Origin: Flavobacterium hercynium
GTDB lineage: Bacteria > Bacteroidota > Bacteroidia > Flavobacteriales > Flavobacteriaceae
DNA length: 64,000 nt
Reading direction: 5' to 3'
NCBI RefSeq assembly: GCF_002217285.1
Contig: NZ_MUGW01000020.1
Span: 124,001 to 188,000, forward strand
Part shown: piece after piece, positions 58,888 through 63,383 of the stretch
Layout of the letters: the number at the start of each line of letters is the position of its first letter
Numbering within the stretch: the first letter of the stretch is position 1
Translations under genes and position numbers: made by a program
The notes under the pieces: generated by a model
Seen by the model: the letters and a program-made list of their open reading frames with translations, nothing else
Told to the model about the DNA's origin: nothing
The model's database searches: none

Positions 58888-59238
58888 TTATTTTTCGGCT
58901 TCTTCCAGTGCTTCCCAGAATTCGTATGCTCTGCGTAAATGTGGCACTACAATTGTTCCTCCAACCAAAGTTGCAATTCCCATCGCTTCCATCATTTCCT
59001 CTTTGGTAACACCTTCTTTATGACTTGTTTCTAGATGATATTTTACACAATCATCGCAACGTAAAACAGCTGATGCAACTAGTCCTAAAAGTTCTTTTGT
59101 TTTTACATCCAAAGCACCTGCAGCATACGCATTGGTGTCCAGATTAAAAATTCGCTTTACAATTTTGTTATTGTCAGCGAGTAATTTTTCGTTCATTTTA
59201 GAACGGTAGTCGTTAAATTCTTGTATGATATCAGACAT
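58888..59238 (-). CDS. Carboxymuconolactone decarboxylase / AhpD-like family protein
   Basis: A 116-residue helical protein. The AhpD-type motif is CDDCVKYHLE near residue 60 with both redox cysteines and the following histidine, preceded by LDVKTKELLGLVASAVLRC. The EMMEAMGIATLVGGTIVVPHLRRAYEF segment is usual in the family. Such proteins often act as disulfide-dependent peroxidases or reductases, although many are of unknown function. Its start overlaps the tatC stop by eight bases, so it is probably coupled to tatC and kdsD. Confidence 0.88.
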   Translation of the reverse strand: MSDIIQEFNDYRSKMNEKLLADNNKIVKRIFNLDTNAYAAGALDVKTKELLGLVASAVLRCDDCVKYHLETSHKEGVTKEEMMEAMGIATLVGGTIVVPHLRRAYEFWEALEEAEK

Positions 59239-60049
59239 TATTTTCTTTCAATTTATTTTTATAAACAATCCTTGAAATAAGGATACTTAACTCGTAAATA
59301 ATCAACATTGGAATCGCTACAATGGTTTGACTCACAACATCTGGAGGTGTTACAATCGCAGCTACAATCAAAATAATAACTACAGCATATTTCCAATACT
59401 TTCTTAAAAAATCAGGAGTAACTAATCCTAGCTTAGTTAAGAAGTAAATAATAATTGGCAATTCAAAAAACAATCCGCTGGCAATAATACTTGTTTTTAC
59501 CATTCCCATGTAAGAGTCTAGAGTAAATTGATTCTTTACTACATCACTCACAGAGAAAGTAGCAACGAAATTTACAGACATCGGAATTACAACGTAATAA
59601 CCAAATAAAACCCCTAAAAAGAAAAGGATAGAAGATGTCGAAATAAAGATTTTAGCATTTTTTCTCTCTTTCTCATATAATGCAGGGCTAATGAACTTCC
59701 ATAACTCCCATAAAATATAGGGAAAACTCAAAATGAAACCAGCAAGAATACACATCCATACGAAGATGTTTACCTGACCTTCCATTTCAGTATTTTGAAT
59801 AATGAAATTTAATTCTGTAATACAAATACTGTCCGCGAATCCTAACTGATGTGATAAATCACAAAACCATTGATAGGTGAAAAACGTAGGTCTTGTTGGG
59901 CCTAATATAACATCATCAAATAAATAATCACTGATAAAGTATGTTGCAAAAGCCATTATCAATATAGCAATTGTGCTTCTTACTAATAGCCATCTTAATT
60001 CTTCAAGATGATCTAAAAACGACATTTCGTTTAGGTTTTTCTTTGCCAT
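59231..60049 (-). CDS. tatC: Sec-independent protein translocase subunit TatC
   Basis: A 272-residue membrane protein with six membrane segments. The cytoplasmic start MSFLDHLEELRWLLVRS is the TatC signature used in signal-peptide recognition, and SPALYEKERKNA near residue 145 is the conserved loop before the third segment. The first periplasmic loop is longer than in E. coli, as usual in Bacteroidota. It is the core of the twin-arginine translocase. No tatA or tatB gene is next to it. One base overlaps kdsD upstream and eight bases overlap the AhpD-like gene downstream. Confidence 0.94.
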   Translation of the reverse strand: MAKKNLNEMSFLDHLEELRWLLVRSTIAILIMAFATYFISDYLFDDVILGPTRPTFFTYQWFCDLSHQLGFADSICITELNFIIQNTEMEGQVNIFVWMCILAGFILSFPYILWELWKFISPALYEKERKNAKIFISTSSILFFLGVLFGYYVVIPMSVNFVATFSVSDVVKNQFTLDSYMGMVKTSIIASGLFFELPIIIYFLTKLGLVTPDFLRKYWKYAVVIILIVAAIVTPPDVVSQTIVAIPMLIIYELSILISRIVYKNKLKENNV

Positions 60050-61014
60050 TATACAATTCCCTCTTTTAAAATGTCATGTAAATGTAAAACGCCTTTGTAG
60101 GTTCCGTTGTCAGAAACGATTAATTGCGTAATCGAAAAATCTTCTAAAATATTCAGAGCATCAACAGCCATAGTGTCTGAGGATACCAGTTTCGGATTTT
60201 TAGTCATAATATCTTTAGCTGTTAAATCTGCAATTGAATCTCTGTCGTTTAGCATTCTTCTAATGTCTCCATCAGTAATAATACCAATAATTTTGTCGTT
60301 TTCTACAACGGCTGTTACGCCTAATCTTTTCTCCGATATCTCAAAAATCACTTTTTTAACCGATGTGTCAGGAGATACAGTTGGTTTTAATGAATTTTCG
60401 ATCATGTCTTGTACACGAAGTAATAATTTTTTACCTAAAGCTCCACCCGGATGATAAATAGCAAAATCTTCAGGTTTGAAATCGCGCATTTCCATAAGGC
60501 AAACCGCAAGAGCATCACCCATAACAAGTTGTGCTGTGGTACTATTTGTTGGTGCTAAATTTATAGGGCAGGCTTCTGAATCAACAGTAGTATTTAAAAC
60601 ATAGTCAGAACCTTTAGCTAAGAAGGAAGTAATATTTCCGGTCATACCGATCAAAATATTTCCAAAACGTTTTAATAACGGAACTAAAACTTTTATCTCA
60701 GGACTGTTTCCGCTTTTAGAAATACAAATAATAATATCATCATTTTGTATCATTCCTAAGTCACCATGAATAGCTTCTGACGCGTGCAAAAACATAGAAG
60801 GAGTTCCGGTAGAGTTAAAAGTAGCCACCATTTTTTGAGCAATGATCGCGCTTTTTCCAATGCCCGTAACGATCAGTCGGCCTTTGGTTTCATAAATGCG
60901 TTGTACAGCATCGTAAAAATTTTCATCTAAGAAATCAATCAGCTTTGTAATGGCTTCACTCTCAGAGAGTATTGTTTTTTTGGCAATAGCCAATATATTT
61001 TCTTTTGTAATCAA
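60049..61014 (-). CDS. kdsD: D-arabinose 5-phosphate isomerase (KpsF/GutQ family)
   Basis: A 321-residue protein with an N-terminal SIS domain and two C-terminal CBS domains, the standard KdsD layout. SIS motifs are IVTGIGKSAIIAQKMVATFNSTGTPSMFLHASEAIHGDLG across residues 48-92 in several blocks, and ISKSGNSPE near residue 98. CBS repeats are at about 205-260 and 270-321. It converts ribulose 5-phosphate to arabinose 5-phosphate for Kdo synthesis in the LPS core. With lptB nearby it marks this flank as LPS housekeeping. The gene is divergent from recQ, with 88 bases between. Confidence 0.92.
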   Translation of the reverse strand: MITKENILAIAKKTILSESEAITKLIDFLDENFYDAVQRIYETKGRLIVTGIGKSAIIAQKMVATFNSTGTPSMFLHASEAIHGDLGMIQNDDIIICISKSGNSPEIKVLVPLLKRFGNILIGMTGNITSFLAKGSDYVLNTTVDSEACPINLAPTNSTTAQLVMGDALAVCLMEMRDFKPEDFAIYHPGGALGKKLLLRVQDMIENSLKPTVSPDTSVKKVIFEISEKRLGVTAVVENDKIIGIITDGDIRRMLNDRDSIADLTAKDIMTKNPKLVSSDTMAVDALNILEDFSITQLIVSDNGTYKGVLHLHDILKEGIV

Positions 61015-61102: not shown

Positions 61103-63298
61103 ATGAATTCAAACGAAATTGAAATACACAAGGAATTAAAGAAGTATTTCGGCTTTAGCCAATTTAAAGGCTTGCAAGAGCAGGTAATTACAAGTATTTT
61201 AGGAAAGACGAATACTTTTGTAATTATGCCAACCGGCGGAGGAAAGTCTCTTTGTTATCAATTACCCGCTTTAATTCAGGATGGAACTGCAATTGTAGTT
61301 TCTCCTCTTATTGCTTTGATGAAAAATCAGGTCGATGCTATTCGAAGTCTTTCTTCGGAAAACGGAATTGCGCATGTACTGAATTCTTCACTTACCAAGA
61401 CAGAAATTGCTCAGGTTAAAAAAGACATCTCGTCCGGATTAACCAAGCTTCTTTATGTAGCACCGGAATCTTTGACTAAAGAGGAATATGTTGCTTTTTT
61501 GCAAAGTGTTTCTATTTCATTTGTCGCTATTGATGAGGCGCACTGTATTTCAGAATGGGGGCATGATTTCAGACCGGAATACCGAAATCTGAAAAACATC
61601 ATCAAACAATTGGGGCAAGTTCCAATCATTGGTCTTACTGCAACTGCAACACCAAAAGTTCAGGAAGATATTCTTAAAAACCTGGACATGTCAGATGCTA
61701 ATACTTTTAAGGCATCTTTCAATAGACCCAACTTATACTACGAAGTTCGTACAAAAACTAAAAATATAGAATCGGATATTATTCGATTCATCAAACAACA
61801 CAAAGGTAAATCAGGTATTATTTATTGCTTAAGCCGTAAAAAAGTAGAATCGATTGCCGAAGTTTTACAAGTTAACGGAATCAGTGCTGTTCCTTATCAT
61901 GCAGGTTTAGATGCCAAAACCCGCGCCAAACATCAGGATATGTTTCTGATGGAAGACGTAGATGTAGTTGTGGCTACAATTGCCTTCGGGATGGGAATCG
62001 ATAAGCCGGACGTTCGTTTTGTAATTCACCATGATATTCCAAAATCGCTTGAAAGCTATTATCAGGAAACCGGTCGCGCAGGACGTGATGGAGGAGAAGG
62101 ACATTGTTTAGCTTACTATTCCTATAAAGATGTAGAAAAGCTGGAGAAATTCATGTCTGGGAAACCTGTAGCAGAACAAGAAATTGGTTTTGCATTGTTG
62201 CAGGAAGTTGTTGCTTACGCCGAAACTTCAATGTCGCGCCGTAAATTTCTATTGCATTATTTCGGGGAAGAATACGACAGTGAAAATGGTGAAGGTGCAG
62301 ATATGGACGATAATGTTCGTAATCCAAAGAATAAAATTGAAGCCAAAGATCAGGCTGTTAAATTGCTTGAAATTGTTCGAGATACCAAACATATTTACAA
62401 ATCAAAAGAAATTGTTTATACTTTAATTGGTCGTATAAACGCTGTGATTAAAGCACATAAAACAGATATACAGCCATTCTTTGGATCTGGTTCAGATCAT
62501 GATGAAAAGTATTGGATGGCATTACTGCGCCAAGTTCTGGTTTCAGGCTATTTGTCTAAAGATATTGAAACGTATGGTGTGGTGAAAATTACACAGGAAG
62601 GTTTGAATTTTATCAAAAATCCGGTTTCGTTTATGATGTCAGAAGATCATGAATATAGCGAATCTGAAGATGAAGCAATCGTAACCGCATCAAAATCTTC
62701 TGCAACGGCAGATGAAGCTTTAATGGGAATGTTGCGAGAACTGCGTAAAAAAGTAGCTAAAAAATTAGGTGTTCCTCCTTTTGTAGTTTTTCAGGATCCA
62801 TCTCTTGAAGACATGGCTTTGAAATATCCAATTACTTTACAGGAATTGTATAATATTCATGGTGTTGGTGAAGGGAAAGCAAAAAAATACGGTGCCGATT
62901 TTGTTACATTGATTAGCCGTTATGTCGAGGATAACGATATCATTCGTCCGGACGATTTAGTTGTAAAATCTACAGGAGTAAATTCAGCCAACAAATTATA
63001 CATCATTCAAAACATAGATCGAAAATTACCTTTGAGCGATATAGCTTCTGCAAAAGGACTTTCTATGGATGCTCTGATCAAAGAAATGGAAATGATTGTT
63101 TATGCAGGAACGAAGCTAAATATCAAATATTGGCTTGATGATATGCTTGATGATGATCAGCAGGAAGAAATTCACGATTATTTCATGGAATCAGAATCAG
63201 ATAAAATCGAAGACGCTCTTAAAGAATTCGATGGCGATTACGATATTGATGAATTGCGTTTAATGCGTATTAAATTTATTAGCGAGGTGGCTAATTGA
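61103..63298 (+). CDS. recQ: ATP-dependent DNA helicase RecQ, lacking zinc-site cysteines
   Basis: A 731-residue RecQ helicase. The motor has VIMPTGGGKSLCYQLPAL (Walker A) near residue 41, IDEAHCISEWGHDFRPEYR near 142, LTATATPKVQ near 192, and YQETGRAGRDG near 325. In the RQC region, near residues 375-410, the sequence TSMSRRKFLLHYFGEE continues into an acidic stretch in which all four zinc-binding cysteines of E. coli RecQ are replaced. An HRDC domain covers about 538-607, and a C-terminal helical HTH-like tail follows. It unwinds DNA in recombination and repair. It is longer than E. coli RecQ (609 residues). Confidence 0.93.
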   Translation: MNSNEIEIHKELKKYFGFSQFKGLQEQVITSILGKTNTFVIMPTGGGKSLCYQLPALIQDGTAIVVSPLIALMKNQVDAIRSLSSENGIAHVLNSSLTKTEIAQVKKDISSGLTKLLYVAPESLTKEEYVAFLQSVSISFVAIDEAHCISEWGHDFRPEYRNLKNIIKQLGQVPIIGLTATATPKVQEDILKNLDMSDANTFKASFNRPNLYYEVRTKTKNIESDIIRFIKQHKGKSGIIYCLSRKKVESIAEVLQVNGISAVPYHAGLDAKTRAKHQDMFLMEDVDVVVATIAFGMGIDKPDVRFVIHHDIPKSLESYYQETGRAGRDGGEGHCLAYYSYKDVEKLEKFMSGKPVAEQEIGFALLQEVVAYAETSMSRRKFLLHYFGEEYDSENGEGADMDDNVRNPKNKIEAKDQAVKLLEIVRDTKHIYKSKEIVYTLIGRINAVIKAHKTDIQPFFGSGSDHDEKYWMALLRQVLVSGYLSKDIETYGVVKITQEGLNFIKNPVSFMMSEDHEYSESEDEAIVTASKSSATADEALMGMLRELRKKVAKKLGVPPFVVFQDPSLEDMALKYPITLQELYNIHGVGEGKAKKYGADFVTLISRYVEDNDIIRPDDLVVKSTGVNSANKLYIIQNIDRKLPLSDIASAKGLSMDALIKEMEMIVYAGTKLNIKYWLDDMLDDDQQEEIHDYFMESESDKIEDALKEFDGDYDIDELRLMRIKFISEVAN

Positions 63299-63299
63299 A

Positions 63300-63383
63300 T
63301 CTTAAAGTCGAAAGTCATAAAGTCCAAAAGAGCTTTGAGTGCAAACTTTACAGCTTTCGACTTTATAACTTTAAGACTTAAGA
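63300..63383. repeat. Imperfect inverted repeat built from AAAGTC words, probable bidirectional terminator
   Basis: The arms 63300-63324 and 63359-63383 are complementary at 19 of 25 positions. Each arm is made of repeated AAAGTC or GACTTT words separated by one or two bases. It begins two bases after the recQ stop and contains the stop codon of the opposing small gene (63378-63380). Position and symmetry fit a terminator for both converging genes. Confidence 0.7.

Follow-up and report, generated by a model that had tools for sequence, protein, structure and literature searches.

A RecQ helicase without zinc ligands in Flavobacterium hercynium and in several related bacterial groups

The window, the whole 64,000-nucleotide stretch of Flavobacterium hercynium DNA analysed here, carries a recQ gene whose product has kept none of the four zinc-binding cysteines of the RQC region. 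This chromosomal RecQ of the lineage is probably a working enzyme with a zinc-free form of the RQC zinc-binding domain, in which a hydrogen-bonded loop would have taken the place of the zinc staple. The form without zinc ligands is a well-defined variant that belongs to RecQ by family tests and is under selection, and it most likely originated more than once. Large bacterial groups seem to run RecQ without structural zinc, and nature seems to have a zinc-free way of constructing this part of the protein, the metal site having been lost in Flavobacterium and several related groups. A search of the open-access literature, outside which most subscription journals lie, turned up no title or opening of an abstract that describes a bacterial RecQ lacking zinc.

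The recQ gene and its missing zinc ligands

The gene, its domains and the positions that correspond to the zinc ligands are as follows.

61103-63298, + strand: recQ, an intact open reading frame of 731 aa matched by TIGR01389; zinc-less orthologue of the class-wide RecQ
62123-62332, + strand: ligand-free equivalent of the zinc-binding domain, residues 341-410 (PF16124 match and model helices)
62234-62236, + strand: Ser378 (TCG), at the place of ligand 1, from the alignment with 1oyw
62264-62326, + strand: replacement loop, residues 388-408, with D392, G396, G398-A399-D400, D402 and D403-N404
62288-62290, + strand: Gly396, at the place of ligand 2, from the orthologue alignment
62306-62308, + strand: Asp402, at the place of ligand 3, from the orthologue alignment
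62315-62317, + strand: Val405, at the place of ligand 4, from the orthologue alignment
62327-62659, + strand: winged-helix part of the RQC, residues 409-519 (PF09382, 69.2 bits, cut-off 23)
62714-62914, + strand: HRDC domain, residues 538-604 (PF00570, 67.7 bits, cut-off 23.8)
62984-63136, + strand: C-terminal HTH (RecQ-1-like_HTH), residues 628-678 (PF21220, 84.6 bits, cut-off 27)

The protein scores 648.8 bits against the TIGR01389 profile (cut-off 640.2), which places it in the RecQ family, and judged by that family it is a 3'-5' DNA-repair helicase. Profile searches identified DEAD, Helicase_C, RQC, HRDC and C-terminal HTH domains, the RQC winged helix and the HRDC both lying above their cut-offs. 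The motor is intact, with MPTGGGKS at residue 42, DEAH at 144, WGHDFRPEY at 152, TATAT at 179, motif V at 294 and motif VI at 319; these stretches include the SF2 motor motifs and the aromatic-rich loop of RecQ. A first-pass annotation made from the letters alone had stated that the motor motifs, the HRDC and a long C-terminal tail remain, and the motif and Pfam matches bear this out. Residues 610-731 of the tail were matched by PDB chain 3iuo_A across its full 122 residues. The motor, RQC winged helix and HRDC are shared with E. coli RecQ (1oyw; TIGR01389), from which the protein differs by the absence of zinc ligands, a loop with a five-residue spacer and the long C-terminal HTH tail.

The PF16124 profile (RecQ_Zn_bind) matches residues 341-394 only (profile positions 1-57 of 66, 43.1 bits, cut-off 25). 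This match ends nine profile positions short and leaves the ligand positions 396, 402 and 405 outside it. S378 pairs with the first RQC cysteine of the E. coli chain 1oyw in the alignment, so that S378, G396, D402 and V405 stand where a Cys4 RQC zinc-binding domain has its four cysteine ligands. Since cysteines occur only at residues 51, 148, 242 and 335, the first-pass annotation of 62221-62340 (about residues 373-413) was right that all four zinc cysteines are gone, that the first ligand position is serine and that no cysteine follows residue 340 or so.

Placement of zinc ligands can vary, as PMC7671478 indicates for WRN (C908, C935, C936 and C939), and the first-pass annotation had named conserved Cys or His ligands elsewhere in the domain as the observation that would count against it. 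We looked for conserved Cys or His elsewhere in residues 341-411 of 130 zinc-less orthologues and found no substitute set. The only histidine of the window protein within these residues, H385, is common among zinc-less orthologues (109/130), but it was rejected as a replacement ligand because zinc-type orthologues share a histidine there (133/159). A sequencing accident could also be ruled out, since the segment is free of cysteine in all 34 loci read from family f1, 32 of them from the genus including the window gene.

A close comparison is with zinc-bearing orthologues from Bacteroidaceae, Prevotellaceae, Chitinophagaceae, Saprospiraceae, Crocinitomicaceae and others. These align over the full length including the tail, with 52-62% identity to the window protein among the zinc-type sequences of the alignment, but unlike it they have CRRK..C..CDNC intact.

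An all-or-none residue pattern and a proposed zinc-free fold

In order to read the ligand positions across the family, 167 further loci were added, less 12 from genomes already used and six that were shorter than 600 aa or contained X. From the resulting 300 rows three paralogues and eight outgroup rows were set aside, leaving 289 orthologues. Of the named loci, 73 were usable, and the structure alignments include 48 and 40 of these. Zinc-type rows (159) comprise 156 with CCCC and three with CCCH, and zinc-less rows (130) comprise 108 with no cysteine and 22 with one; the share 130/289 is not a natural frequency, because families with zinc-less members were deliberately sampled and the loci are best matches. 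Rows with two cysteines, or with three and no histidine, did not occur among the 289. The change looks all-or-none, with either a complete set of ligands, CCCC or CCCH, or no more than a single cysteine. In the three CCCH rows (L101, L117 and L130) ligand 4 is now His, as CDNHRHP or CDNHRYP, and these forms could still bind zinc.

Position 378 is C in 159/159 zinc-type rows and S (92) or N (38) in the 130 zinc-less rows, in which position 396 is G in 127 and A in three, 398 is G in 127 and K in three, and 402 is D in 108 and C in 22, the sole leftover cysteine being always at this position. Position 405 is variable among them. The spacer between 396 and 402 (residues 397-401) has five residues in all 130 zinc-less rows; in the 156 CCCC rows it has two or three residues in 152 and five in the other four. 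A second version of the loop, of the DETTAGKDELDDN kind, lacks the two glycines and was seen in L268, L270 and L272 (genus g230, f6).

Position 392 is D in 130/130 zinc-less but 60/159 zinc-type rows, and the mean net charge of residues 388-405 is -6.5 in the former against -3.8 in the latter. Both observations would also suit a swap of zinc for Ca2+ or Mg2+, which the acidic loop would bind through D392, D402 and other ligands. We regard such a swap as improbable: a cysteine occupies position 402 in the 22 one-cysteine rows, both glycines are missing in three of the 130, and by eye the loop fits no familiar calcium-loop pattern. Moreover, D403 and N404 are not specific to zinc-less proteins, since zinc-type rows conserve them to about the same degree (158/159 and 157/159).

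An AlphaFold model of the window RecQ has a mean pLDDT of 79.9 and a pTM of 0.63, with a mean pLDDT of 70 at residues 391-400 and values below 50 for nearly all of 294-330. Its superposition on 1oyw covers 488 residues, with a Z of 36.1 and an rmsd of 3.0. The helices predicted for the domain are 341-351, 356-374, 379-386 and 403-406, so that the helices and placement of an RQC zinc domain are present in the PF16124 match and the predicted model. The same helices appear when L221, a zinc-type orthologue, is modelled (mean pLDDT 83.6, pTM 0.63), the equivalent ones beginning at 374 and 396, directly after ligands 1 and 3. In the model of the window protein, residues 378 and 402 directly precede helices 379-386 and 403-406. 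Serine, asparagine and aspartate are classic helix N-cap residues, and the DSSP helix starts suggest that S/N378 and D402 act as such caps. A Gly-rich acidic loop anchored by D392 would hold the site together by hydrogen bonds in place of the metal staple; D392 is the best candidate for the anchor because it is optional with zinc and fixed without it. DNA binding and unwinding would be retained without the metal. The first-pass annotation had supposed that the region must be stabilised in another way, and the strictly conserved replacement loop, together with a modelled fold that keeps its helices, is consistent with this.

The number and manner of zinc losses

The zinc-less proteins fell into four groups, named after inspection of the tree. 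Group A holds the zinc-less members of f1, f2, f67, f68, f73, f74, f76 and f78 and group B those of f71, all in the window's order; group C is f6, in a second order; and group D comprises f53, f103, f104, f107 and f111, in a third. Among new loci, which are best matches to zinc-less queries and whose shares are not natural frequencies, 25/28 in the f6 order were zinc-less (the other three, from f102 and f65, zinc-type), as were 25/29 in the f53 order (15 with one cysteine left; the other four, from f105, zinc-type) and 17/30 in f71 (13/30 zinc-type). The best 80 named loci of a longer list were 35 zinc-less and 45 zinc-type. By its neighbours in the trees the window RecQ would itself belong to Flavobacteriaceae, most likely Flavobacterium. 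The zinc-less named loci are labelled Flavobacteriaceae, Weeksellaceae, one Cryomorphaceae MAG and unclassified Flavobacteriales or Flavobacteria, and the zinc-type ones include Bacteroidaceae, Prevotellaceae, Chitinophagaceae, Saprospiraceae, Sphingobacteriaceae, two Crocinitomicaceae and one Cryomorphaceae MAG. The RecQ of L193, a MAG titled Chryseobacterium gleum, pairs with L316 (f53, another order) with SH-aLRT 100 and apart from other Weeksellaceae; the record may be mislabelled or contaminated.

Zinc was taken as the ancestral state because the outgroups and three paralogues read are zinc-type. A 151-row tree, built with columns 375-412 removed and without L003, L009 (the window's gene again) and L138 (contains X), has four zinc-state changes, and its starred branches force four. 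The 289-row tree has seven changes, five of them forced, and sets of 84 and 88 rows gave five and six. That zinc was lost only once and the gene tree is wrong appears very improbable. A single zinc-less clade was rejected with an AU p of 7.5e-12 (lnL difference 179; 29 versus 55 rows), joining A with C gave p 0.0012 and B with D p 7e-91, and zinc-type and zinc-less members occur side by side within f71 and within the f6 order. In favour of a single loss, the tests of A+B (p 0.032) and A+D (p 0.028) are moderate, and the two parts of D as a single clade were not rejected (p 0.66). The tree that holds D together is in fact better than the free tree by 12.9 log units, and therefore the quick search misses trees and overcounts. 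Because of this, and because the groups were named after the tree, we count at least three origins and infer that four are likely, within a span of three to five. The first-pass annotation had spoken of "this lineage"; the lineage is indeed zinc-less, but it is not a single odd one, as the form occurs in several families of three orders and has more than one origin.

Our tentative reading of these origins is that zinc was lost several times independently with nearly the same answer each time, namely S/N378, an invariant D392, G396 and, after a five-residue spacer, D(or C)-D-N. The domain would then be a two-state switch, metal-stapled or metal-free, without half-way forms, and the metal-free form would amount to a short sequence rule. 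The repeated pattern could instead reflect exchange between lineages, by recombination, of a short stretch that carries the zinc-free domain, which we judge less likely. A precedent is provided by ribosomal protein S4, whose zinc and non-zinc forms have been exchanged according to PMC3087516. FastTree trees of separate partitions need two zinc-state changes for residues 300-374 as against five for 10-345, eight for 413-520 and eight for 530-725, but they are built from few columns, poorly resolved and too weak to decide alone.

Site likelihoods, computed on the alignment with the zinc columns included, favour one zinc-less clade mainly at 330-349 (-15.0), 370-389 (-33.7) and 390-409 (-73.8). 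They speak against it at 350-369 (+4.0) and, turning just past the zinc site, at 410-429 (+25.1); smaller favouring blocks lie elsewhere, the largest at 710-725 (-10.1). The blocks within 370-409 must favour one clade, however, because they hold the trait's own columns, and sites 371 and 377, which adjoin the zinc site, also favour it. Outside 370-409 a handful of sites, above all 342 and 369, carry the support, and 331 and 352 oppose it. Ligands aside, residues 330-391 of groups B and C are nearer to other zinc-less rows than to their zinc-bearing sisters, with 0/56 control windows as high; group D, represented by one row, has no such excess (16/56 control windows as high). Adaptation of the contacting residues and the passing of a short stretch between lineages explain these signals equally well; we lean towards adaptation.

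Paralogues, selection and neighbouring genes

Three proteins encoded in the window's assembly score above the TIGR00614 cut-off: the zinc-less RecQ itself, L001 and L003. L001 is a 702-aa RecQ with CRRK...CGNCDIC, and L003 is a 631-aa protein, presumably RecS-like, with a set of cysteines near its end. The first-pass annotation had recommended looking for a second, cysteine-bearing RecQ in the genome, and two are present. Genome-wide zinc saving is unsupported for RecQ, both paralogues retaining their cysteines. Across the genus, the orthologue was found in 61/61 genomes searched, the window's included, although only in pieces in three; the 32 genus loci whose zinc state was read are all zinc-less. 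It is therefore not an extra copy beside a zinc-bearing orthologue, as zinc-free backups induced by zinc shortage are, but the standing orthologue itself. A second complete RecQ with about 40% identity was found in 28 of the 61, the same 28 being recovered by another search. A partial RecQ frame of 723 aa in G031 is a possible 29th, and G040 and G006 gave weaker RecQ-like matches. This leaves 32 or 33 genus genomes, a number of which are incomplete assemblies, where the zinc-less protein was the sole RecQ of that architecture found; a RecS-like protein is also present as a rule.

Among 32 genus rows, pN/pS was 0.056 for residues 341-410, 0.055 for the motor, 0.074 for the loop (388-408) and 0.149 for the winged helix; these are ratios of raw proportions and are rough, because synonymous sites are near saturation (pS 0.70). 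The equivalent of the zinc domain looks as constrained as the motor, with no sign of decay, and a pseudogene or frameshift is ruled out by the intact frame and these ratios.

The RecQ zinc domain has nevertheless been reported as important for folding and DNA binding, and BLM mutants of zinc cysteines as inactive, in PMC4872126. An impaired or specialised enzyme is possible for this reason. That the window RecQ is impaired or non-functional as a helicase, its work being done by a cysteine-bearing paralogue, would also accord with the two cysteine-bearing RecQs in the same genome, but we see little chance of it: the motor motifs are intact, motor, domain and loop are all constrained, and the orthologue is universal in the genus genomes searched while the complete paralogue is found in fewer than half of them. 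The zinc finger of E. coli RecQ was reportedly studied by Liu et al. in 2004.

A close case within the wider family is human RecQ4, in which, according to PMC5490261, the counterpart of the RQC zinc domain has no zinc and is proposed by the authors to have a role in stability. The window RecQ model aligns with RecQ4 (PDB 5lst) over 360 residues with Z 31.4. RecQ4, however, has no canonical RQC and has another zinc domain, whereas in the window RecQ only the ligands and the loop are changed. Similar losses are described for S4, whose zinc-site motif is absent in some bacteria and of which both forms occur in 26/660 genomes (PMC3087516), and for GluRS, of which some bacteria have zinc-free forms while the protein stays in use (PMC4381286). 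S4 (C-) and zinc-free GluRS are translation proteins; the zinc-less RecQ is a standing orthologue. The zinc-bearing and zinc-free orthologues, at about 60% identity, form natural pairs with which the role of zinc in folding could be separated from that in DNA binding, and the sequence rule of the zinc-free loop is testable by loop exchange.

Two genes on the opposite strand lie often near recQ.

60049-61014, - strand: open reading frame, phosphosugar isomerase gene, divergent neighbour often beside recQ; we take it to be of the KdsD/KpsF kind
59231-60049, - strand: open reading frame, presumably tatC-like, often near recQ

A kdsD-like gene is near recQ at 37/42 zinc-less versus 17/61 zinc-type loci and tatC at 37/42 versus 5/61, counted over the 103 of 108 loci that had a zinc state; given the short flanks and the greater distance of the zinc-type set, a miss does not mean an absence.

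Directly after recQ, at 63295-63383, lies an imperfect palindrome with 86% complementarity between its arms (63303-63323 and 63345-63365). Counting itself, the stretch 63293-63382 is matched 13 times in its own genome, the other 12 matches being of about 25-38 bases, and because of these the region looks like a dispersed intergenic repeat. At the other end of the window, all open reading frames of at least 150 aa within positions 1-53720 (about 53 kb) are on the + strand and tightly packed, many overlapping by a few bases. They look like one or more long operons, and our guess is that these serve surface polysaccharide.
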